Of a stretch of 34,011 nucleotides of DNA, positions 23,807-32,730 are shown piece by piece (position 1 is the first letter of the stretch; each line of letters opens with the position of its first letter). The notes beneath the pieces were generated by a model, which had not been told where the DNA came from, searched no databases, and was given only the letters and a program-made list of their open reading frames with translations. Both the position numbers and the translations under genes were made by a program. Source of the stretch: Candidatus Rokuibacteriota bacterium (GTDB taxonomy: Bacteria > Methylomirabilota > Methylomirabilia > Rokubacteriales > CSP1-6); contig QHSC01000106.1 of NCBI GenBank assembly GCA_003220345.1, forward strand, positions 1-34,011, read 5' to 3'.

Positions 23807-23928
23807 TCATCCTCGGCAGCTCAAGCACAGTTCGTGAGCAGCCCGCAACGTAGGCACGGCCTCCGCCGCTCTCCTCTCTGACCTGATGCGGCGGGAGCTT
23901 AGGGCCGACGGTGCCCGCGGGTGATGCG

Positions 23929-23944
23929 TGGCACGGGCGTTGCT
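23929..23944 (+). promoter_or_regulatory. sigma-54 (RpoN) promoter of nitrate assimilation operon
   Basis: TGGCACGGGCGTTGCT matches the RpoN consensus TGGCACG-N4-TTGCW at every position, with GG and GC ten bases apart (-24/-12). Transcription would start near 23955. RpoN promoters need an activator such as NtrC; no clear NtrC palindrome was recognised in the 150 bases upstream. Confidence 0.85.
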
Positions 23945-23957
23945 CTTTCTGTCCCGA

Positions 23958-23977
23958 GGCCTGCGGGGTGGCAGGCC
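23958..23977 (+). promoter_or_regulatory. leader hairpin (perfect 7-bp stem, 6-base loop)
   Basis: GGCCTGC (23958-23964) and GCAGGCC (23971-23977) enclose the loop GGGGTG. It begins about three bases from the predicted RNA 5' end. A competing hairpin GCCG-CAACAA-CGGC (23975-23988) shares its 3' arm. Six-base loops are the target type of ANTAR antiterminators, but the loop lacks the expected A at position 1. Confidence 0.6.
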
Positions 23978-23990
23978 GCAACAACGGCGA

Positions 23991-24031
23991 GGGCGCCGGC
24001 TCCCGAGAGGGAGAGGCGCCCTATTTTTTTT
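23991..24031 (+). terminator. intrinsic terminator in the leader of the nitrate operon (attenuator)
   Basis: GGGCGCC (23991-23997) pairs with GGCGCCC (24015-24021), and inside it CTCCC (24000-24004) pairs with GGGAG (24009-24013) around a GAGA tetraloop. TA and eight T follow (24024-24031). The start codon of the binding-protein gene is at 24046, so no promoter fits between; expression requires readthrough. Confidence 0.88.
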
Positions 24032-24045
24032 GGAAAGGGGAATTC

Positions 24046-25284
24046 ATGCGCACCACCCGACGAGATTTCCTCAGGATCACGGCCGCGGGCACCCTGCTCG
24101 CAGGGGTGCCGGCTCGATGGGCCGGCACCGCCTACGCGTCCGACGCCCCGGAAACTCCGAAGATGCGGATCGGCATCATCGCCCTCACCGATTGCTCCTC
24201 GATCGTGATGGCCCACGAGCTGGGTCTCTTCAAGAAGTACGGGATAGAATCGACGATTTCCAAGGAGGCGTCGTGGGCGGTCATCCGTGATCGCCTCTCG
24301 CTCGGCGAGAACCAGGCGACTCACATGCTCCTCGGCATTCCCTACGCGGCGACGATGGGCCTTCAGGGCTCGCCCGTGAAGCCGATGGTCATCCCGATGT
24401 ACCTCAACCGGAACGGCCAGGCCATCACGCTCACGAAGGCGCTGCTCGAGAAGGGCGTGAAGACTCCGCAGCAGCTCAAGCCGCTCGCCCTGGAGGCCAA
24501 GGCCAAGGGCGCGCCCATGACCTTCGCCATGACCTACCCGCCGGGCACCCATGCCATGTGGACGCGCTACTGGCTGGCCGCGGGCGGTCTCAATCCCGAC
24601 CGCGATGTCACCCTGATCACGATCCCGCCCGCGCAGATGGTCGCGAACATGAAGGTGGGCAAGATGGACGGCTATTGCGTCGGCGAGCCGTGGGGGGCGC
24701 GCGCCATCGCCGACGGCATCGGCTTCACCGCCATCACCACGCAGCAGATCTGGAAGGACCACCCGGAGAAGGTGCTCGCCTTCACCGAGGAGTTCGCCAC
24801 CAAGAATCCCAAGACGGTGAAGGCGACCATGCGCGCGGTCCTCGAGGCGAGCCAGTGGAACGACAAGCTCGAGAACCGCCCCCGCATGGCCGAGGTGGTG
24901 GGCCAGCCGCAGTACGTCAACGCCGCCAAGGAGATCATCCTGGGTCGGATGCTCGGCGACTACGACTACGGCGACGGGCGCAAGGAGAAGGACAAGTACT
25001 ACATGACCTTCTTCGATCGCCAGACCAACTTCCCCCTCAAGTCCCATGGCGTCTGGTGGCTGACCCAGTTCCGCCGCTGGGGGATGGTCAAGGAGACGCC
25101 CGACTACAAGGGGCTCGTGGACCGGGTGCACCGGCCCGACATCTATCGGGAGGTCGCGAAGGAGATGAGCATCGAGGTGCCGCGCGAAGACATGAAGAAG
25201 GAGACGCTCTTCGACGGCGTGCCCTTCGACCCCGCGGAGCCCGAGAAGTACGTCAAGGCCTTCGCCGTGAACACGATGGCATAG
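24046..25284 (+). CDS. nrtA: nitrate ABC transporter substrate-binding protein (NrtA/CmpA family)
   Basis: 412 aa. Tat signal TTRRDFLRITAAGTLLAG. The mature domain matches NrtA/CmpA: MRIGIIALTDCSSIVMAHEL, GLFKKYGIESTISKEASWAV, LLGIPYAATMGLQGSPVKPM and KMDGYCVGEPWGARAI, with VWWLTQFRRWGMV late in the protein. It binds nitrate or nitrite in the periplasm. The start is the ATG at 24046, since AAAGGGG is five bases upstream and the Tat motif follows directly; the frame extends further upstream only through the terminator. Nitrate, rather than sulfonate or bicarbonate, is inferred from the reductases downstream. Confidence 0.9.
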   Translation: MRTTRRDFLRITAAGTLLAGVPARWAGTAYASDAPETPKMRIGIIALTDCSSIVMAHELGLFKKYGIESTISKEASWAVIRDRLSLGENQATHMLLGIPYAATMGLQGSPVKPMVIPMYLNRNGQAITLTKALLEKGVKTPQQLKPLALEAKAKGAPMTFAMTYPPGTHAMWTRYWLAAGGLNPDRDVTLITIPPAQMVANMKVGKMDGYCVGEPWGARAIADGIGFTAITTQQIWKDHPEKVLAFTEEFATKNPKTVKATMRAVLEASQWNDKLENRPRMAEVVGQPQYVNAAKEIILGRMLGDYDYGDGRKEKDKYYMTFFDRQTNFPLKSHGVWWLTQFRRWGMVKETPDYKGLVDRVHRPDIYREVAKEMSIEVPREDMKKETLFDGVPFDPAEPEKYVKAFAVNTMA

Positions 25285-25293
25285 GGGCGGACC

Positions 25294-26064
25294 ATGTCAT
25301 CGAGACTCGGGGCTCGCCTTCTGTTGCCGTTCCTTGGCCTGACCGCCGTGCTCCTCCTCTGGGCCGTGGTCAGCCAGACGGTGGCGGCCGACCTGCCCTC
25401 GCCCTGGAAGACCTGGCTGGAGTCGAAGCGCTACATCCTCGAGCCCTTCTTCAAGGACGGCGAGATGAACCAGGGCATCGGCCGTCTCGCCTTCTACTCG
25501 CTCGTGCGCGTGGCCAAGGGCTATCTCCTCGCCCTCGCCATCGGGACCCCGATCGGCTTCTTTCTCGGGCTCTCGCGGGGCTTCCATTCCGCCTTCGACC
25601 CCATCATCCAGTTCCTCCGCCCGATCTCGCCCCTGGCCTGGCTGCCCCTCGGCCTCGTGGTCTTCCAGAAGTCGGAGCCCGCGGCCATCTTCACCATCGC
25701 GCTGTGCGCGATGTGGCCGACCGTCATCAACACCGCGGTGGGCGTGCGCGGCATCAGCCAGGACTATCTCAACGTCGGCCGGGTCCTCAAGCTCTCGAAG
25801 CTCAAGATGATGACCAAGATCATCATCCCCGCCTCCCTCCCCTACGTCTTCACGGGCTACCGGCTCTCCCTCGGCATCGCCTGGCTCGTCATCGTGGCGG
25901 CGGAGATGCTGACGGGGACCCCGGGGGTGGGCGGCTTCCTGTGGCAGGAGTACAACAGCCTCGTCTACTCGCACATCATCCTCTCCGTCATCACCATCGG
26001 CGCGATCGGGTTCATCCTCGACCGGCTCATGGGGCTCGTCGAGTCCCGCTTCAAGACGACATGA
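25294..26064 (+). CDS. nrtB: nitrate ABC transporter permease (NrtB family)
   Basis: 256 aa, about six membrane spans (first LLPFLGLTAVLLLWAVVS). FDPIIQFLRPISPLAWLPLG is the signature stretch of the nitrate/sulfonate/taurine permease family. The EAA-like loop is VGRVLKLSKLKMMTKIIIPA followed by SLPYVFTG. The gene begins nine bases after nrtA and its stop overlaps the first ATPase start (ATGA). Shorter than most NrtB (about 275 aa), but the core is complete. Confidence 0.92.
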   Translation: MSSRLGARLLLPFLGLTAVLLLWAVVSQTVAADLPSPWKTWLESKRYILEPFFKDGEMNQGIGRLAFYSLVRVAKGYLLALAIGTPIGFFLGLSRGFHSAFDPIIQFLRPISPLAWLPLGLVVFQKSEPAAIFTIALCAMWPTVINTAVGVRGISQDYLNVGRVLKLSKLKMMTKIIIPASLPYVFTGYRLSLGIAWLVIVAAEMLTGTPGVGGFLWQEYNSLVYSHIILSVITIGAIGFILDRLMGLVESRFKTT

Positions 26065-26846
26065 GCCACTACCTCGAGGTTCGGGGCCTCGAGAAGACAT
26101 TCCGCGCGGCGACGGGGCCGGTACGCGTGCTGGGCGGCGTCGACCTCTCCCTGGAGGACGGGGAGTTCGTGGCCATCGTCGGCTATTCCGGCTCCGGCAA
26201 GACGACGCTCGTCTCCCTTATCGCCGGCCTCATCGCCTCCGACGCCGGCACCATCGTGCTGGACGGCGCCGTGGTGACCGAGCCCGGCCCCGAGCGGGGG
26301 ATTGTCTTCCAGCAGTACTCGCTCCTGCCCTGGATGAGCGTCTACGACAACGTCGCCCTCGCTGTGGACGCCGTCAATCCGGGCCTCTCCGGCGCGGAGC
26401 GGAGACGCGTCACCGAGGAATTCATCGCCCTCGTGAACCTGAGCGAGGCGACCTGGAAGCGGCCGCGCGAGCTCTCGGGGGGCATGCGCCAGCGCGTGGC
26501 CGTGGCGCAGGGGCTCGCCATGCGCCCGAAGCTCCTTCTCATGGACGAGCCCTTCAGCGCGCTGGATGCCCTCACGCGCGCCACGCTCCAGGACGAGCTC
26601 CTGCGGATCTGGGGGGAACGGCGCTCGACGGTGATCATGGTCACCAACGACGTCGACGAAGCCATCCTTCTCGCTGATCGCATTTACCCGATGACGCCGG
26701 GTCCGGGCGCCGTCCTCGGCCCCGCCATCGAGGTCGGGCTCGAGCGTCCGCGCCACCGGCGCCACATGAGCCTGACCCCGGCCTATCAGAAGGCCCGGCA
26801 GGGCATCGTCGAGTTCCTCCGCGCCTGCCGTCGCGGCTGGGCGTGA
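26061..26846 (+). CDS. nitrate ABC transporter ATP-binding protein 1 (H-loop His replaced by Asn)
   Basis: 261 aa from the ATG at 26061. Walker A GYSGSGKTT (41-49), Q-loop IVFQQYSLLPW, signature LSGGMRQRV (138-146), Walker B LLLMDEP (158-164). The switch region reads VIMVTNDVDEA with N196 where the catalytic-cycle His normally sits. A single ATPase domain; it lacks the binding-protein-like C-terminal domain of cyanobacterial NrtC. It probably pairs with the second ATPase encoded 13 bases downstream and drives the NrtB permease. Confidence 0.92.
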   Translation: MSHYLEVRGLEKTFRAATGPVRVLGGVDLSLEDGEFVAIVGYSGSGKTTLVSLIAGLIASDAGTIVLDGAVVTEPGPERGIVFQQYSLLPWMSVYDNVALAVDAVNPGLSGAERRRVTEEFIALVNLSEATWKRPRELSGGMRQRVAVAQGLAMRPKLLLMDEPFSALDALTRATLQDELLRIWGERRSTVIMVTNDVDEAILLADRIYPMTPGPGAVLGPAIEVGLERPRHRRHMSLTPAYQKARQGIVEFLRACRRGWA

Positions 26847-26859
26847 GGGATCACCAGCC

Positions 26860-27702
26860 ATGAACGAGGCCGCGAACCAATCGATCAATGTGGTGGGGGG
26901 GTCTGGGGGAGGAGCGACGCCGCTCCCCCCCAGAACCCTTGTCGAGATCGCTCAGCTCGGGAAGACGTACCCGACGCCCGTCGGACCGTCGGAGGTCGTC
27001 CGCGACTTCACGCTTCACGTCAGGCAGGGCGAGTTCGTCTGCATCGTCGGGCACTCGGGCTGCGGCAAGTCCACCGTGCTGTCCATCATCATGGGCCTCA
27101 ACCCGCCCACAACGGGGGGCGTGGTCATCGGTGGCCGCGAGGTCAGCGGTCCCGGTACCGACCGCGGCGTGGTCTTCCAGTCGGCGACGCTGCTGCCCTG
27201 GCTCTCCGTGCGCGACAACGTGCGGCTCTCCCTTGGCCAGGTCCGTCCCGGAGCCGTGGCCGCCGACGCCGATCCGTACCTCGACGCGGTCGGCCTCCCG
27301 GGGCAGGGGAACCGCTATCCGCGGGAGCTCTCGGCGGGCATGCAGCAGCGCGTCGGCATCGCGCGCGCCTTTGCCCTGGAGCCGCGGCTCCTCCTCCTCG
27401 ACGAGCCGTTCTCTCTCCTGGACGCGCTGACCCGGATGGACCTCCAGGACCAGCTCATGACGCTCTGGGAAGCCGAGCGGAAGACCGTCATCATGGTCAC
27501 CCACGACGTGGACGAGGCCCTCTTCCTGGCCGACCGCATCGTCATGATGACGAGCGGTCCCGCCGCCACCGTTGGCGAGATCCTGGCCGTGTCCTTTCCG
27601 CGGCCGCGCCGGCGCGAGGAGATCCTGTCGACCTCCGAGTACTTCGAGCTGCGCGACCAGGTCGTCGGCTTCCTCGAAGAGTGCGCCAATGTTCGAGCTT
27701 AG
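26860..27702 (+). CDS. nrtD: nitrate ABC transporter ATP-binding protein 2 (NrtD type, LSAGM signature)
   Basis: 280 aa. About 25 Gly/Pro-rich residues precede the domain. Walker A GHSGCGKST (64-72), Q-loop VVFQSATLLPW, signature LSAGMQQRV (157-165; Ala replaces the second conserved position's Gly), Walker B LLLLDEP (177-183), H215 in VTHDVDEA. The end GPAATVGEILAVSFPRPRRR is characteristic of nitrate-transport ATPases. The start is the ATG at 26860. The gene overlaps nasA by 14 bases. Confidence 0.92.
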   Translation: MNEAANQSINVVGGSGGGATPLPPRTLVEIAQLGKTYPTPVGPSEVVRDFTLHVRQGEFVCIVGHSGCGKSTVLSIIMGLNPPTTGGVVIGGREVSGPGTDRGVVFQSATLLPWLSVRDNVRLSLGQVRPGAVAADADPYLDAVGLPGQGNRYPRELSAGMQQRVGIARAFALEPRLLLLDEPFSLLDALTRMDLQDQLMTLWEAERKTVIMVTHDVDEALFLADRIVMMTSGPAATVGEILAVSFPRPRRREEILSTSEYFELRDQVVGFLEECANVRA

Positions 27703-29818
27703 TGGAACGTGGCGGAAGACGTTGTGCCCCTACTGCGGTGTTGGGTGCGGACTGCTGGTGCAGATCGAGGACGGCGCCGTCAGGAGGGTGAAGGGCGATC
27801 CTGAGCATCCGTCGAGCTTGGGGGACGTGTGCGCCAAGGCCGTGCACTTGCCTCCGGCTCTCCGCACGCCCGATCGGCTGCTCTATCCGCAGGTGCGGAC
27901 GCGGCGCGACGCCGAGCTGAGCCGCGTGCCCTGGGAGCTCGCCGTGCGCACGGTCGCCGACCGGCTTCGCGAGATCGTGGCCACGCATGGTCCCGCGGCG
28001 ATCGCGTTCTACGGCTCGGGGCAGCTCCTGACCGAGGAGTACTACGTCGCCTCGAAGCTGGCCAAGGGCTTTCTCGGCACCAACAACTTCGACACGAACT
28101 CGCGGCTCTGCATGGCCTCGGCCGCGGCCGGCTACGCGCGCTCCCTGGGATCCGACGGCCCCCCCGGGACCTATGCCGACATCGAGACCGCCGACTGCTT
28201 TTTCCTGATCGGCACCAACACCGCCGAGTGCCATCCCGTGACCTGGAAGCGCATCCGCAAGCGCAAGCTCGCCGCCCCCGACGAGGTCGCCGTCATCGTG
28301 GCCGATCCGCGCTTCACCGAGACGGCCGACATCGCCGACCTGCATCTCCCGCTCCGACCGGGCTCGGACATCGCGCTCCTCAATGCCATGCTCCACGTCC
28401 TCTGGAAGGACGGGCTCCTCGACCGCCATTTCATCGAGGAGCGCACGCGGGGCTGGGCCCAGCTCCTGCCCGTCATCGCGCGCTACACGCCCGAGCGGGC
28501 AGCCGCCCTCACCGGCCTCTCCCCCGAGATCATCGCGGGGGCGGCGCGGCGCTTCGGCGGAGCGCGCGCGGCCATGACGCTCTGGAGCATGGGGATCAAC
28601 CAGAGCCACATCGGCACCGACAAGAATGCCGCGATCCTCAACCTGCATCTCGCCACGGGGCAGATCGCGCGGCCGGGCGCCGGACCCTTCTCGCTGACGG
28701 GTCAGCCCAACGCCATGGGCGGCCGCGAGACGGGCGGTCTCGCGCATCTGCTCCCTGGCTATCGTCAGGTCACCGACGCGGCGGCCCGCGCCACCGTCGA
28801 GCGGCACTGGGGCGTGCCCGCCGGGCGCATCGCCTCCAGCCCGGGACGGGCGGCCCTGGAAATCTTCGAGGGGCTGCGCGAGGGCTCCGTGCGGGCCGTG
28901 TGGATCATTTGCACCAATCCCGCCGCCTCCATGCCCGACCTCGATCTCGTCGAGAAGGCGCTCCGGCAAGCCGAGCTGGTCATCGTGCAGGACGCCTATC
29001 ACCCGACGGAGACGACGCGATTCGCTGACGTCTTGCTGCCCGCCGCGCAGTGGCCCGAGAAGGACGGCGTGATGACGAATTCCGAGCGGCGGCTGACCTA
29101 TCTGCCGAAGCTCGTGGACCCTCCAGGCGAGGCCTTGCCCGACGCCGTCATCGTCACGCGTGTGGCCAGGGAGCTGGGCTTCAAGGATGCGTTCCCGTAC
29201 GAGAGCGCGTCCGAGATCTTCGACGAGTTCGCTGCGCTCACGGCCGGCACGGTCTGCGACTGCTCGGGGGCGAGCCACTATCGCCTCTCGTCCGTGGGGC
29301 CGCTCCAGTGGCCGGTGCCGGGCCCGACCCATCCAGGGACGCCGAGGCTCTACACGGACGCGCATTTCCCGACGGGCGACGGCCGCGCCCGGCTCGTGGC
29401 CGTCGAGCACGACCCTCCCGTCGAGCCGCCGGACGCCGCCTATCCGCTGACCCTGACCACCGGGCGCGTGCGCGACCACTGGCACACGCTGACGCGCACG
29501 GCCAAGTCGCCCGCCCTCGCTGCGCGCACGCGCGAGCCGCTCCTCGAGGTCCACCTGCGTGACGCGCGCCGCGCCGGCATCCGCGACGGCGACTTCGTCG
29601 AGATCACCTCCCGCCGGGGCAAGGCGGTGGCGCAGGCGCGGGTGGGGGAGACCATTCGCGAGGGCACGTGCTTCCTGCCCTTTCACTGGGGAAGGCAATG
29701 GGGCTTCTACAAGGCGGCGAACAACCTGACGCTCTCGGCGCGCGATCCCCTCTCGCGGCAGCCCGAGCTCAAGGCCTGCGCCGTCCGCCTCCGGGCCATC
29801 ACCGAAGACCGCGCATGA
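27689..29818 (+). CDS. nasA: assimilatory nitrate reductase catalytic subunit (ferredoxin type)
   Basis: 709 aa. It reduces nitrate to nitrite in the cytoplasm using Mo-bis-MGD and one [4Fe-4S] cluster. Cluster ligands C13, C16, C20 and C48 (CPYCGVGCG and GDVCAKA). Probable Mo ligand C141 in TNSRLCMASAAAGY. The C-terminal MGD domain has TLTTGRVRDHWHTLTRT and FLPFHWGRQWG. Length is close to cyanobacterial NarB; there is no C-terminal [2Fe-2S]/BFD extension and no NasB/NasC-type NADH subunit gene follows, so ferredoxin or flavodoxin is the likely donor. The ATG at 27689 lies inside the end of the preceding ATPase gene; the longer frame upstream is out of frame with real protein. Confidence 0.93.
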   Translation: MFELSGTWRKTLCPYCGVGCGLLVQIEDGAVRRVKGDPEHPSSLGDVCAKAVHLPPALRTPDRLLYPQVRTRRDAELSRVPWELAVRTVADRLREIVATHGPAAIAFYGSGQLLTEEYYVASKLAKGFLGTNNFDTNSRLCMASAAAGYARSLGSDGPPGTYADIETADCFFLIGTNTAECHPVTWKRIRKRKLAAPDEVAVIVADPRFTETADIADLHLPLRPGSDIALLNAMLHVLWKDGLLDRHFIEERTRGWAQLLPVIARYTPERAAALTGLSPEIIAGAARRFGGARAAMTLWSMGINQSHIGTDKNAAILNLHLATGQIARPGAGPFSLTGQPNAMGGRETGGLAHLLPGYRQVTDAAARATVERHWGVPAGRIASSPGRAALEIFEGLREGSVRAVWIICTNPAASMPDLDLVEKALRQAELVIVQDAYHPTETTRFADVLLPAAQWPEKDGVMTNSERRLTYLPKLVDPPGEALPDAVIVTRVARELGFKDAFPYESASEIFDEFAALTAGTVCDCSGASHYRLSSVGPLQWPVPGPTHPGTPRLYTDAHFPTGDGRARLVAVEHDPPVEPPDAAYPLTLTTGRVRDHWHTLTRTAKSPALAARTREPLLEVHLRDARRAGIRDGDFVEITSRRGKAVAQARVGETIREGTCFLPFHWGRQWGFYKAANNLTLSARDPLSRQPELKACAVRLRAITEDRA

Positions 29819-31347
29819 ACAAGACCGAAGCGCTCAAGACCGAGAAGGACGGGCTCGACATCCAGGAGGATCTCGTCCGCTTCGCCCGCGAGGGATGGAA
29901 GACCATCGGCGACGACGACAAGGAGCGGCTCAAGTGGGTGGGCGTGTTCATGCGGCGCCCCACGCCGGGCCACTTCATGATGCGCGTCCGCATGCCCAAC
30001 GGCATCGTCACCACGGATCAGGTCCGCCTGCTCGCGCAGATCACACGCGAGTCCGGACGGAGCATCGCCGACATCACCACGCGCCAGCAGCTCCAGCTTC
30101 GCTGGGTCACGATCGAGCGGGTGCCGGAGATCATCGCGCGTCTGGAGGCGGCGGGGCTCTCGAGCCTGCAGACGGGAATGGACAACATCCGCGGGATCAT
30201 CGGCTGCCCCGCCACGGGCCTGACGCCGGGTGAGCTGATCGACACCGCGCCCATCGCGCGCGAGTTCCAGCGAATCTTCCTCGGCAACAAGGAGTTCACC
30301 AACCTGCCGCGGAAGTTCAACGTCACCATCACGGGGTGCCCCGAGCACTGCACTTCCGGGGAGACGCAGGATATCTCGATGACGCCCGCCCTGGCCTCCG
30401 GAGGCGACGGCGATGAGATCGCCGGCTTCAACGTGGCGGTGGGGGGCAAGCAGGGCTCGGGAGGGCCCACGCTCGCCCGCTCCCTCGACGCCTTCGTGCG
30501 CCCCGAGGAGGCGGCGGCGGTCTGCGCGGCCATCGCCCTCGTCTACCGCGACCACGGACCGCGCGAGTCGCGCAGCAAGGCGCGCCTGGCCTTCCTGCTC
30601 GCCGAGTGGGGAGCGGAGCGCTTCCGGAAAGAGCTCGAGGCGCGCCTGGAGCGGCCCTTGCCGCGGGCGGGGCGGGACGCGCGCGGGGCCACCCACAGCG
30701 ACCACATCGGCGTCTTCCGGCAACGCGAGCCCGGCCTCAACTACGTGGGGCTCAAGACCCCGGTGGGTCGCGTCACCGCCAATCAGCTCGACGCGCTGGC
30801 GCGGCTGGCCGACCGCTACGGGCGCGGCGAGCTCCGCTTCATGGCCTCGCAGGACGTGCTTCTCCCTCACGTCCCCGATACGATGCTCGGCGACCTGACC
30901 CAGGAGCCGCTCCTGAAAGAGCTGCCCTACAACCCCTCGGAGATCCGCCGCGGCCTCGTCTCGTGCACGGGCACGGACTTCTGCAACCTGGCCCTCATCG
31001 ATACCAAGACGCGCGCCATGGCCCTCGCGAACCAATTCGAGAAAGACATCGGCAAGACCCGTCCGATCAGCGTGCGCTGGTCCGGCTGCCCTGCCTCGTG
31101 CGGGAACCACCACACCGCCGACATCGGGCTCCAGGGGTGCAAGGTCAAGGTGGACGGCAAGATCGTGGACGGTGTCCATGTTTTCGTGGGCGGCCGCGGC
31201 GGGAACGATCCGCGGGCTGCCATGCGGATCATGGAGGACGTGCCCTGTGACGAGCTGCCGGAGGTCCTCGAGCGGCTCGTCCGCTTCTTTCCGCGACCGG
31301 AGCGGCAGGCGCCGCCCCCGGAGCCGCGACCGGAGTCCTCGACATGA
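29815..31347 (+). CDS. nirA: ferredoxin-nitrite reductase
   Basis: 510 aa. It reduces nitrite to ammonium with six electrons, using siroheme coupled to [4Fe-4S]. The cluster/siroheme cysteines are C384 and C390 (SCTGTDFCNLAL) and C425 and C429 (SGCPASCGNH). The first half has RMPNGIVTTDQVRLLAQITR and ADITTRQQLQLRWVTIERVP, usual in nitrite rather than sulfite reductases. ITGCPEHCTS is a further conserved Cys region. A Pro-rich tail ends the protein. The ATG overlaps the nasA stop by four bases. Sulfite reductase is the alternative, but context supports nitrite. Confidence 0.92.
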   Translation: MNKTEALKTEKDGLDIQEDLVRFAREGWKTIGDDDKERLKWVGVFMRRPTPGHFMMRVRMPNGIVTTDQVRLLAQITRESGRSIADITTRQQLQLRWVTIERVPEIIARLEAAGLSSLQTGMDNIRGIIGCPATGLTPGELIDTAPIAREFQRIFLGNKEFTNLPRKFNVTITGCPEHCTSGETQDISMTPALASGGDGDEIAGFNVAVGGKQGSGGPTLARSLDAFVRPEEAAAVCAAIALVYRDHGPRESRSKARLAFLLAEWGAERFRKELEARLERPLPRAGRDARGATHSDHIGVFRQREPGLNYVGLKTPVGRVTANQLDALARLADRYGRGELRFMASQDVLLPHVPDTMLGDLTQEPLLKELPYNPSEIRRGLVSCTGTDFCNLALIDTKTRAMALANQFEKDIGKTRPISVRWSGCPASCGNHHTADIGLQGCKVKVDGKIVDGVHVFVGGRGGNDPRAAMRIMEDVPCDELPEVLERLVRFFPRPERQAPPPEPRPESST

Positions 31348-31976
31348 GCTTCGCGTACCCGGTCATGCTCGACATCGCGGGACGGCCTTGTCTCGTGGTG
31401 GGCGGCGGCCCCGTGGCCGAGCGGAAGATGGACGGACTGCTCGCCGCGGATGCACGCGTGACCGTGGTCAGCCCGTCGCTCACGCCGGCCCTCCTGACCC
31501 TGGCCGCCGAGGCGCGGCTTCACTGGCGGCCGCGCGAATACGTCGCCGGAGACGCGGCGGGGTTCGCCCTCGTCATGGTCGCCACCTCGGACGCCTCGGT
31601 GAGCGAGGCCATCGCCGCGGAGTGTCGGGCGCGGGGCGTGTGGATCAATTGCGCCGACGATCCCGGGCGCTGCGATTTCATCCTGCCCGCGGTCTTCCGT
31701 CGTGGCGCGCTCACGGTGGCGGTGTCGACGGGTGGCGTCAGCCCGACCATGGCGCGACTGGTGCGCGAGGAGCTGGAAGCCCGCTTGCCTGACGACCTGG
31801 CGCTGCTCACCGACGTCATGGGCGATGTTCGGCGATCGCTCCGGGAGGGCGGCATCTCCCTCGACGCCGAGCGCTGGTGGCAGGCCCTGGACGGAGAGCT
31901 GCGAAGCCTGGTCGCGGCCGGCCGCACGGCCGAGGCGCAGGCGCGGTTGAAGGAGCGTCTCGGTGTCTCAGGGTAA
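31344..31976 (+). CDS. precorrin-2 dehydrogenase / sirohydrochlorin ferrochelatase
   Basis: 210 aa. It oxidises precorrin-2 with NAD and inserts iron to give siroheme, the prosthetic group of the nitrite reductase encoded just upstream. The Rossmann motif VVGGGPVAERKMDGLL follows the start MLDIAGRPC. The conserved stretch VWINCADDPGRCDFILPAVF and RGALTVAVSTGGVSPTMARL match CysG N-terminal/Met8p/SirC proteins. The chelatase Asp is likely in the ADDPGRCDF segment. The ATG overlaps the nirA stop (ATGA), and its end overlaps the next gene by 14 bases. Confidence 0.92.
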   Translation: MSFAYPVMLDIAGRPCLVVGGGPVAERKMDGLLAADARVTVVSPSLTPALLTLAAEARLHWRPREYVAGDAAGFALVMVATSDASVSEAIAAECRARGVWINCADDPGRCDFILPAVFRRGALTVAVSTGGVSPTMARLVREELEARLPDDLALLTDVMGDVRRSLREGGISLDAERWWQALDGELRSLVAAGRTAEAQARLKERLGVSG

Positions 31977-32730
31977 GGTCGTCCTCGTCGGCGCCGGCCC
32001 CGGCGACCCGGAGCTGATCACGCTCCGCGGCCTCCGGTGGCTCCGTCGCGCGGAGGTGATCGTGTACGACCAGCTTTCCACCCCCGCGCTCCTCGACGAA
32101 GCGCCCGAAGACGCGTTGAGGATCTTCGCGGGCAAGTCGGCGGGACGGCACTATCTCGAGCAGTCCGCCATCAATGCCATCTTGATCCATCACGCCCGGC
32201 GCGGAAGGCTCGTGGTCCGCCTCAAGGGCGGCGATCCCTTCGTCTTCGGCCGGGGAGGGGAGGAGATGCTGGCGTGCGCGCGCGCCGGGGTGGCCGTGGA
32301 AGTGGTGCCGGGCGTCAGCGCGGCGATCGCGGTGCCCGCCGCCGCCGGCATCCCCGTCACGCACCGAGGCTTCGCGTCGTCGTTTGCCGTCGTGACCGGC
32401 CACGAAGATCCCGCCAAGCCGGAGCCTGCCGTGGACTGGGAGCGCCTCGCGATGGCCGTGGACACGCTCGTCATCCTGATGGGCGTGGGGACACTACCGC
32501 GCATCACCGCACGGCTCCTGGCGGCGGGGCGGAGCGGAGACACGCCTGCGGCCGTGATCCACCGCGGGACTACCCAGGCGGAAGAGACCGTGGTCGGCAC
32601 GCTCGGCGACATCGCCGCCCGTGCCGCGGAGATCCAGGCGCCGGCCGTCATCGTGATCGGCGAGGCGGTGGCTTTCCGCCCCCTGCTCGCGCGATCGCTG
32701 CTCGCCGCCGCCGTCCTCGATCACCGCTGA
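31963..32730 (+). CDS. cobA: uroporphyrinogen-III C-methyltransferase
   Basis: 255 aa, GTG start with AAGGAG 8 bases upstream. It methylates uroporphyrinogen III at C2 and C7 with SAM to give precorrin-2. Family motifs: [17 protein letters not shown] (loop at the SAM site), [37 protein letters not shown] and [18 protein letters not shown]. Together with the preceding protein it equals a split CysG. It is the last gene of the nitrate operon; nothing downstream on this strand appears coding. Confidence 0.95.

Follow-up and report, generated by a model that had tools for sequence, protein, structure and literature searches.

The nasF operon of Klebsiella is transcribed from a sigma-54 promoter. 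In Klebsiella oxytoca, the leader of nasF, which is read by the NIT-ANTAR protein NasR, carries a pair of hairpins ahead of nitrate assimilation genes, each with a six-base loop closed by a C-G pair, and the second of these (P2) overlaps the terminator (PMC7496416). The NasS-NasT systems of Paracoccus, Azotobacter and Bradyrhizobium combine a receiver-ANTAR protein with hairpin leaders before nitrate genes (nasA, nosR) and are under general nitrogen control through NtrC (PMC5424462, PMC3795266, PMC6759348), and the eut leaders read by EutV have the same dual six-base-loop motif and the same overlap of P2 with the terminator (PMC3369931, PMC8934654). Published ANTAR targets have A at position 1 (A1) and G at position 4 (G4) of both loops (PMC3369931), and SELEX with NasR likewise gave A1 and G4 loops (PMC7496416). 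ANTAR target RNAs have been predicted widely before nitrogen genes, including those for urea and nitrate transporters and nitrite reductase (PMC3369931), so that the kind of switch considered here is already known. For ANTAR genes, predicted sigma-54 promoters came mainly from beta- and gammaproteobacteria (PMC12316311), and a word search of the accessible text of that paper found no mention of Rokubacteria or Methylomirabilota. Among the literature matches listed, nothing dealt with this system for Rokubacteria together with nitrate assimilation or antitermination, or for ANTAR together with urtA. The leader presented here would extend ANTAR antitermination of nitrate assimilation to Rokubacteria.

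Rokubacteria are a soil group known mostly from metagenomes. The window, by which we mean the whole 34,011-nt stretch of DNA that was analysed, is contig C252 of a Candidatus Rokubacteria genome (G000 in our set; 5.6 Mb, 429 contigs, 96.6% complete, 7.3% contaminated), and the 10 closest named relatives by nrtA were all Candidatus Rokubacteria genomes. Its nitrate operon lies on the plus strand and begins with an nrtA-like gene for a nitrate ABC transporter binding protein (24046..25284; Pfam NMT1_2, E 1.5e-92), the product of which carries a twin-arginine-type signal, as judged by eye. It is followed by an nrtB-like ABC permease gene (25294..26064; BPD_transp_1), two ABC ATPase genes (26064-26846 and 26860-27702; ABC_tran) and a nitrate-reductase-like molybdopterin oxidoreductase, for which the mechanical reading frame spans 27572..29818 and the real start is probably near 27700; its top NCBIfam scores, 585 bits for Fdh-alpha and 528 for NasC, are both under the families' own cut-offs. 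Farther downstream are nirA, encoding a ferredoxin-nitrite reductase-like protein (29668..31347, mechanical start; 535 bits against a cut-off of 594), and two siroheme synthesis-type genes found by profile search (31344-31976 and 31963-32730).

Upstream of nrtA, positions 23929..23944 of the plus strand match the sigma-54 consensus exactly (TGGCACG-N4-TTGCT). This is the only exact match in the window and one of five across the 5.6-Mb genome, in which an RpoN domain was also found; with the full TGGCACG-N4-TTGCW pattern, its GG and GC included, the site is a predicted sigma-54 promoter in the strict sense. Inexact sites carry little meaning in this genome, since the pattern with at most one mismatch gave 56 matches, compared with 42 for the reversed control. 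Transcription is expected to start at 23954..23956, judging from the position of the -12 GC (23942-23943). About three bases farther on begins hairpin P1 (23958..23977), which has a perfect 7-bp stem and the six-base loop GGGGTG and on its own is moderately unusual (shuffle p 0.028). P2, the putative antiterminator hairpin (23985..23998), has a 4-bp stem and a six-base loop, CGGC-GAGGGC-GCCG. The predicted intrinsic terminator (23990..24031) pairs 23990-23997 with 24015-24022 and, further in, 24000-24004 with 24009-24013, and ends in a U tract of eight T (24024-24031), leaving 14 bases to the ATG at 24046. The leader thus has two hairpins, each with a stem of 3 bp or more and a six-base loop, the second of which overlaps an intrinsic terminator: P2 and the 5′ arm of the terminator have eight bases in common (23990-23997). 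A simple terminator scanner, which takes single stems with loops of 3-8 bases, reported no site. The region 23952-24050 folds at -50 kcal/mol, compared with a shuffle mean of -39 (z -3.1), and beats 200 of 200 shuffles. P1 with the terminator reaches -44.5 kcal/mol and P1 with P2 -22.8 kcal/mol; when five successive transcript ends were folded, P2 was self-paired at 23998, 24004, 24010 and 24016 and was replaced by the terminator at 24022. Termination is therefore the predicted default, and readthrough would require that P2 be held.

An earlier note, made from the letters of this stretch, had described the full-consensus RpoN site, the perfect 7-bp hairpin about three bases past the predicted start, the U-tract terminator ending 14 bases before the ATG and, taken together, a nasF-like sigma-54 promoter with a terminator/antiterminator leader of a nitrate assimilation operon; our analysis agrees on each of these, on the last through layout, folds and conservation. 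The same note had also proposed a smaller hairpin that is mutually exclusive with another structure. This stands insofar as P2 excludes the terminator and is seen in relatives, but P2 had not been singled out as an ANTAR-type hairpin, and the hairpin meant could be GCCG-CAACAA-CGGC.

We consider it likely, judging from sequence, that the leader works as a transcription antitermination switch of the ANTAR type, placed downstream of a sigma-54 promoter. Upon nitrogen starvation, an NtrC-like enhancer-binding protein would cause the sigma-54 promoter to fire; by default, P1 and the terminator would form and transcription would halt before nrtA. An ANTAR protein that occupies the P1 loop and then the P2 loop would hold P2, the 5′ arm of the terminator would be unavailable, and readthrough would extend into nrtA, the ABC transporter genes, the nitrate reductase gene, nirA and the siroheme genes. 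We infer that nitrate or nitrite is the signal, the nitrate signal being the least supported step of this scheme.

P2 contributes only -6.8 kcal/mol beside the -28.5 kcal/mol of the terminator, and one could picture a plain terminator with constitutive readthrough, all regulation being exerted at the sigma-54 promoter. Conservation bears on this point. A search for nrtA in the 60 genomes of the order (E ≤ 1e-100) yielded 15 genomes, our own included, and the leader layout is common to the window and the 14 others: a pattern search aimed at such sites found a sigma-54-like site in all 14, followed by a GC-rich stretch, a T-rich tract and nrtA, with a poor T tract in G009. The earlier note had recommended aligning the leaders and looking for covariation, and the 15-row alignment contains compensatory changes in both P2 and the terminator. 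P2 is paired in 89% of cells, compared with 17-56% when the partner is slid, and has five cells with changes on both sides, a number reached by 4 of 500 shuffles; the number of its pairs with both-sided changes (two) and of further pair types (five) are ordinary (204 and 194 of 500 shuffles). For the terminator, 91.8% of cells are paired and 18 are both-sided (0 of 500 shuffles); both-sided pairs number five (28 of 500) and further types 11 (120 of 500). Two genomes, G008 and G009, have a broken P2 stem but retain the terminator, as a plain terminator would allow. Against such a reading, the outer P2 pair, which lies outside the terminator, has changed from CG to AU in two leaders and still pairs, and the three-part layout recurs before several nitrate and nitrite operons. 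We regard regulation at the promoter alone as very improbable and keep to antitermination.

The shuffle p of P1 was below 0.05 in 7 of the 15 leaders and above it in the other 8; in 14 leaders, all but G028, where the script took another hairpin, the P1 loop starts 22-31 bases past the TGC of the -12 element, and in five leaders the loop has five bases on differing stems (L035 ACGGC, L038 ACGAG, L042 ATGGC, L043 ATGAC, L044 ACGGC). In G025, which belongs to the same genus as our genome, P1 reads GGCTTGC-AGGGTG-GCAAGCC, one stem pair being changed on both sides.

A covariance model built on the 15 nrtA leaders (R1) widened the set. At E ≤ 0.05, R1 matched 27 of the 60 genomes of the order, that is, the 15 model sources and 12 others; the matches in G040 and G051 look like chance. 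The search at E ≤ 0.001 covered 95 genomes of the phylum, among them the 60, and gave matches in 27, three of which belong to family f10. The chance-like matches L133 and L134 were left out of the resulting set of 34 leaders, and the weak matches G027:C20, G007:C151, G020:C255:37172, G039:C85 and G010:C128 were left out of the loci. The genes that follow the leaders, assigned by inspection and from their similarity to the window proteins, were nrtA in the 15 and in G057, with an nrtA-like reading frame in G014, and nirA in G012, G003, G011, G026, G024, G058 and G088; in G010 a formate/nitrite-transporter-like gene stands between the leader and nirA. The oxidoreductase downstream of the leader in G085 and G092 may be nirB-like. 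A second nrtA-like gene in our own genome (L094:1129-2553, contig C101) is accompanied by an ABC permease gene and a sigma-54-like site, and no R1-type leader was found there; in G041 a leader does precede a similar second nrtA-like gene (L137). As a side observation, the nrtA leader on contig C203 of G057 (L121:468-572), a genome of another family, is nearly identical to that of G025, which would reflect either gene transfer or a misbinned contig.

The loop letters were compared with the A1-G4 rule. Both window loops (GGGGTG and GAGGGC) have G at position 4, as do all 15 aligned P2 loops, including the two with a broken stem. There are two causes for the conservation of G4, G5 and C6 in P2, because these bases are also held by the terminator stem. 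A1 is absent from the window, where position 1 is G in both loops, and across the 15 P2 loops position 1 is G in 11, A in two and C in two. The leader is thus a variant of the ANTAR target rather than a plain member. An automatic hairpin picker applied to the 34 leaders returned a hexaloop in 29, with position 1 as G in 15 and A in 14 and position 4 as G in 28 and C in one. For the nrtA leaders the aligned count is preferred. The picker returned P1 as P2 in G030, settled on incorrect hairpins in G008, G009 and G017, misread the terminator in G003 and G030 at least, and missed P2 in G014, G003, G012b, G030b and G041b. In 11 of the 15 P2 loops, G1 could pair with C6, and RNAfold forms this pair in the window P2, leaving a four-base loop. 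According to the EutV-RNA structure paper, A1 makes no specific contact and G4 stacks on the protein; A1 was proposed to prevent cross-loop pairing, and Met172 to exclude smaller loops (PMC8934654). With 11 loops in which G1 is able to pair with C6, the idea about A1 and cross-loop pairing becomes directly testable, and the Rokubacteria leaders provide a natural set that varies at loop positions thought to be fixed.

Because of its GGGGTG loop, the window leader had been suggested in the earlier note to answer to another ligand or protein, and an attenuator that works independently of ANTAR proteins, through binding of a small molecule (nitrate, the molybdenum cofactor or another) to the RNA or through some other protein, would account for the missing A1. 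It would also agree with the lack of a NasS or NIT-domain sensor in our searches (the control of the NIT search was itself silent) and of any Rfam family at threshold. The relatives point elsewhere. The P1 loop of the sister leader in G025 is the canonical AGGGTG with A1 and G4, which recurs in G057, and the conserved parts of the 15-row alignment are short hairpins and a terminator, with no extended conserved aptamer core seen. Furthermore, six loci carry an ANTAR gene ahead of the leader and in the same orientation, 73-468 bases away. The distance is 224 bases in G030, where nrtA follows the leader; 73 bases in G058 (weak leader match, 27 bits) and 468 bases in G088, both with nirA downstream, the gap in G088 holding open frames of up to 83 amino acids; 373 and 244 bases in the deltaproteobacterial loci L020 and L021, with nirA and nrtA downstream; and 97 bases in the burkholderial locus L029, followed by nrtA (weak leader match, 27 bits), where the ANTAR protein is without an equivalent of R175. 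This linkage is the best evidence for the ANTAR reading of the leader type. The proposal of another ligand or protein was not upheld, and we give an ANTAR-independent attenuator very little credence.

Which ANTAR protein would read the window leader is a separate question. The genome search for an ANTAR nitrate sensor advised in the earlier note succeeded in part: the only ANTAR match in our genome is a receiver-ANTAR protein (reading frame C137:2484-3086), which adjoins urea transporter genes and is unlinked to nrtA, and the NIT domain had no match in the genome, the control of that search being silent. In an alignment with EutV, this protein keeps most of the RNA-contact residues (R142, K143, K149, E160, M172 and R175), has Phe in place of Tyr164 and differs at R168, N173 and R177 (residue roles from PMC8934654; the numbering assumes that chain and paper differ by two). 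Phosphorylation at Asp54 activates EutV, whereas the homologous site in the C137 receiver is Ala. The same holds widely: a search of 42 loci, our own included, gave 44 aligned rows, in which the phosphoacceptor site is Ala in 37, Asp in three (two of them receiver-only matches), Glu in two and not covered in two. Across the order, 43 of the 60 genomes had ANTAR matches. These lie at 56 places, of which 30 (29 and our own) were taken as loci, plus some others. Of the 29 best-scoring loci besides our own (L047-L075), 27 have the ANTAR gene next to urtA, as does our genome (only a partial match in L062), and Ala occupies the phosphoacceptor site in nearly all of these proteins; urtA was not seen at the second ANTAR loci L088 and L089.

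The locus differs from each described system in some respect. Compared with nasF/NasR, there is no NIT domain match (with the silent control), G1 stands in both hairpins and the gene content is another. Unlike in NasS-NasT systems, no NasS adjoins the ANTAR gene, which is instead located at a urea transporter and encodes Ala in place of the receiver Asp; the genome has 21 matches to PF13379, and the two strongest, each next to an ABC permease gene and apparently equipped with a signal sequence, resemble exported transporter subunits. The neighbourhood of ANTAR and UrtA suggests the pairing of an antiterminator with a binding-protein-type partner known from AmiR-AmiC, UrtA being presumably related to AmiC, but UrtA here looks like an exported transporter subunit as well. 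Candidate R1-type leaders between our ANTAR gene and urtA reached 11.9 bits at best (minus strand, partial) and 8.5 bits, and were not accepted.

We infer that this single pseudo-receiver ANTAR protein is the reader in our organism. A more specific proposal, which we put forward tentatively and would ourselves call doubtful, is that one ANTAR protein, whose gene lies at the urea transporter and whose receiver cannot be phosphorylated, reads the nitrate and nitrite leaders of Rokubacteria in trans without NasS or a NIT domain, through P2 loops narrowed to four bases by G1-C6 pairing and, in some genera, through five-base P1 loops. Such loop reading, if true, would break the six-base, A1-G4 rule of ANTAR recognition. 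The location of the only ANTAR gene found in our genome, next to the urea transporter, also makes one ask how a single antiterminator that has no phosphorylation site could act for two nitrogen sources. Another possibility, which lies within the ANTAR explanation and so does not exclude it, is that the reader is a dedicated nitrate-responsive NasS-NasT or NasR system missed through genome incompleteness, rather than the urea-linked ANTAR protein. G030 and G058 do have an ANTAR gene beside nrtA or nirA, and our assembly is in 429 contigs and 96.6% complete; against a missed reader, the urea-linked ANTAR gene is the only one found in eight of the nrtA genomes (G000, G025, G008, G021, G016, G006, G028 and G041), and we consider it unlikely. 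No ANTAR match was found in three of the 15 nrtA genomes (G009, G018 and G039, which are 94, 95 and 77% complete).

Another described RNA, the narK RNA (Rfam RF03032), shares with the window leader the sigma-54-like letters and a six-base-loop hairpin, followed by a hairpin of the CGAC-AAAGAC-GUCG type. Window positions 23930-23999 align over the whole model; the score of 20.2 bits is below the gathering score of 43.2, and L138 scored 16.1 bits, so that membership was rejected. No match was obtained in L021, nor at E ≤ 1 when 19 loci, the window's included, were searched together. The whole-genome search (E ≤ 10) returned nine weak matches in our genome, none of them the window's, and is uninformative because 13 of 14 control genomes also gave matches. 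Given the A1 and G4 of its second hairpin, the narK RNA consensus may itself be a NasT-type ANTAR target; a NasT hairpin has been predicted in a narK leader of Bradyrhizobium (PMC6759348).

Upstream of the promoter lies a degenerate palindrome, AGCCCG-N5-TAGGCA (23840..23856; three mismatches to TGCCTA-N5-TAGGCA, shuffle fraction 0.04), which is a weak candidate for the site of an enhancer-binding protein. G025 has this palindrome with two mismatches at the same distance. In the 12 other nrtA leaders compared (G028 was left out), the best matches had 3-5 mismatches at varying distances, and two of them (G017 and G039) gave a shuffle fraction below 0.05 with simple base shuffles; TGCCTA-N5-TAGGCA was thus dismissed as a common activator site, as it has no consistent place in these leaders beyond the window and G025. 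With at most one mismatch, the pattern occurs at six places in our genome, compared with four per strand for the backward control pattern. Two of its occurrences lie upstream of sigma-54-like sites: an exact one at the urea operon (L031:3119-3135) and one with a single mismatch near the second nrtA-like gene (contig C101:11497-11513), both possibly sites of an enhancer-binding protein. The ANTAR gene of our genome is itself preceded by a sigma-54-like site, TGGCATCGTCCTTGC (L031:2454-2484, contig C137), and such a site lies 29-44 bases before the ANTAR start in 8 of 8 loci (loose pattern; some start codons approximate).
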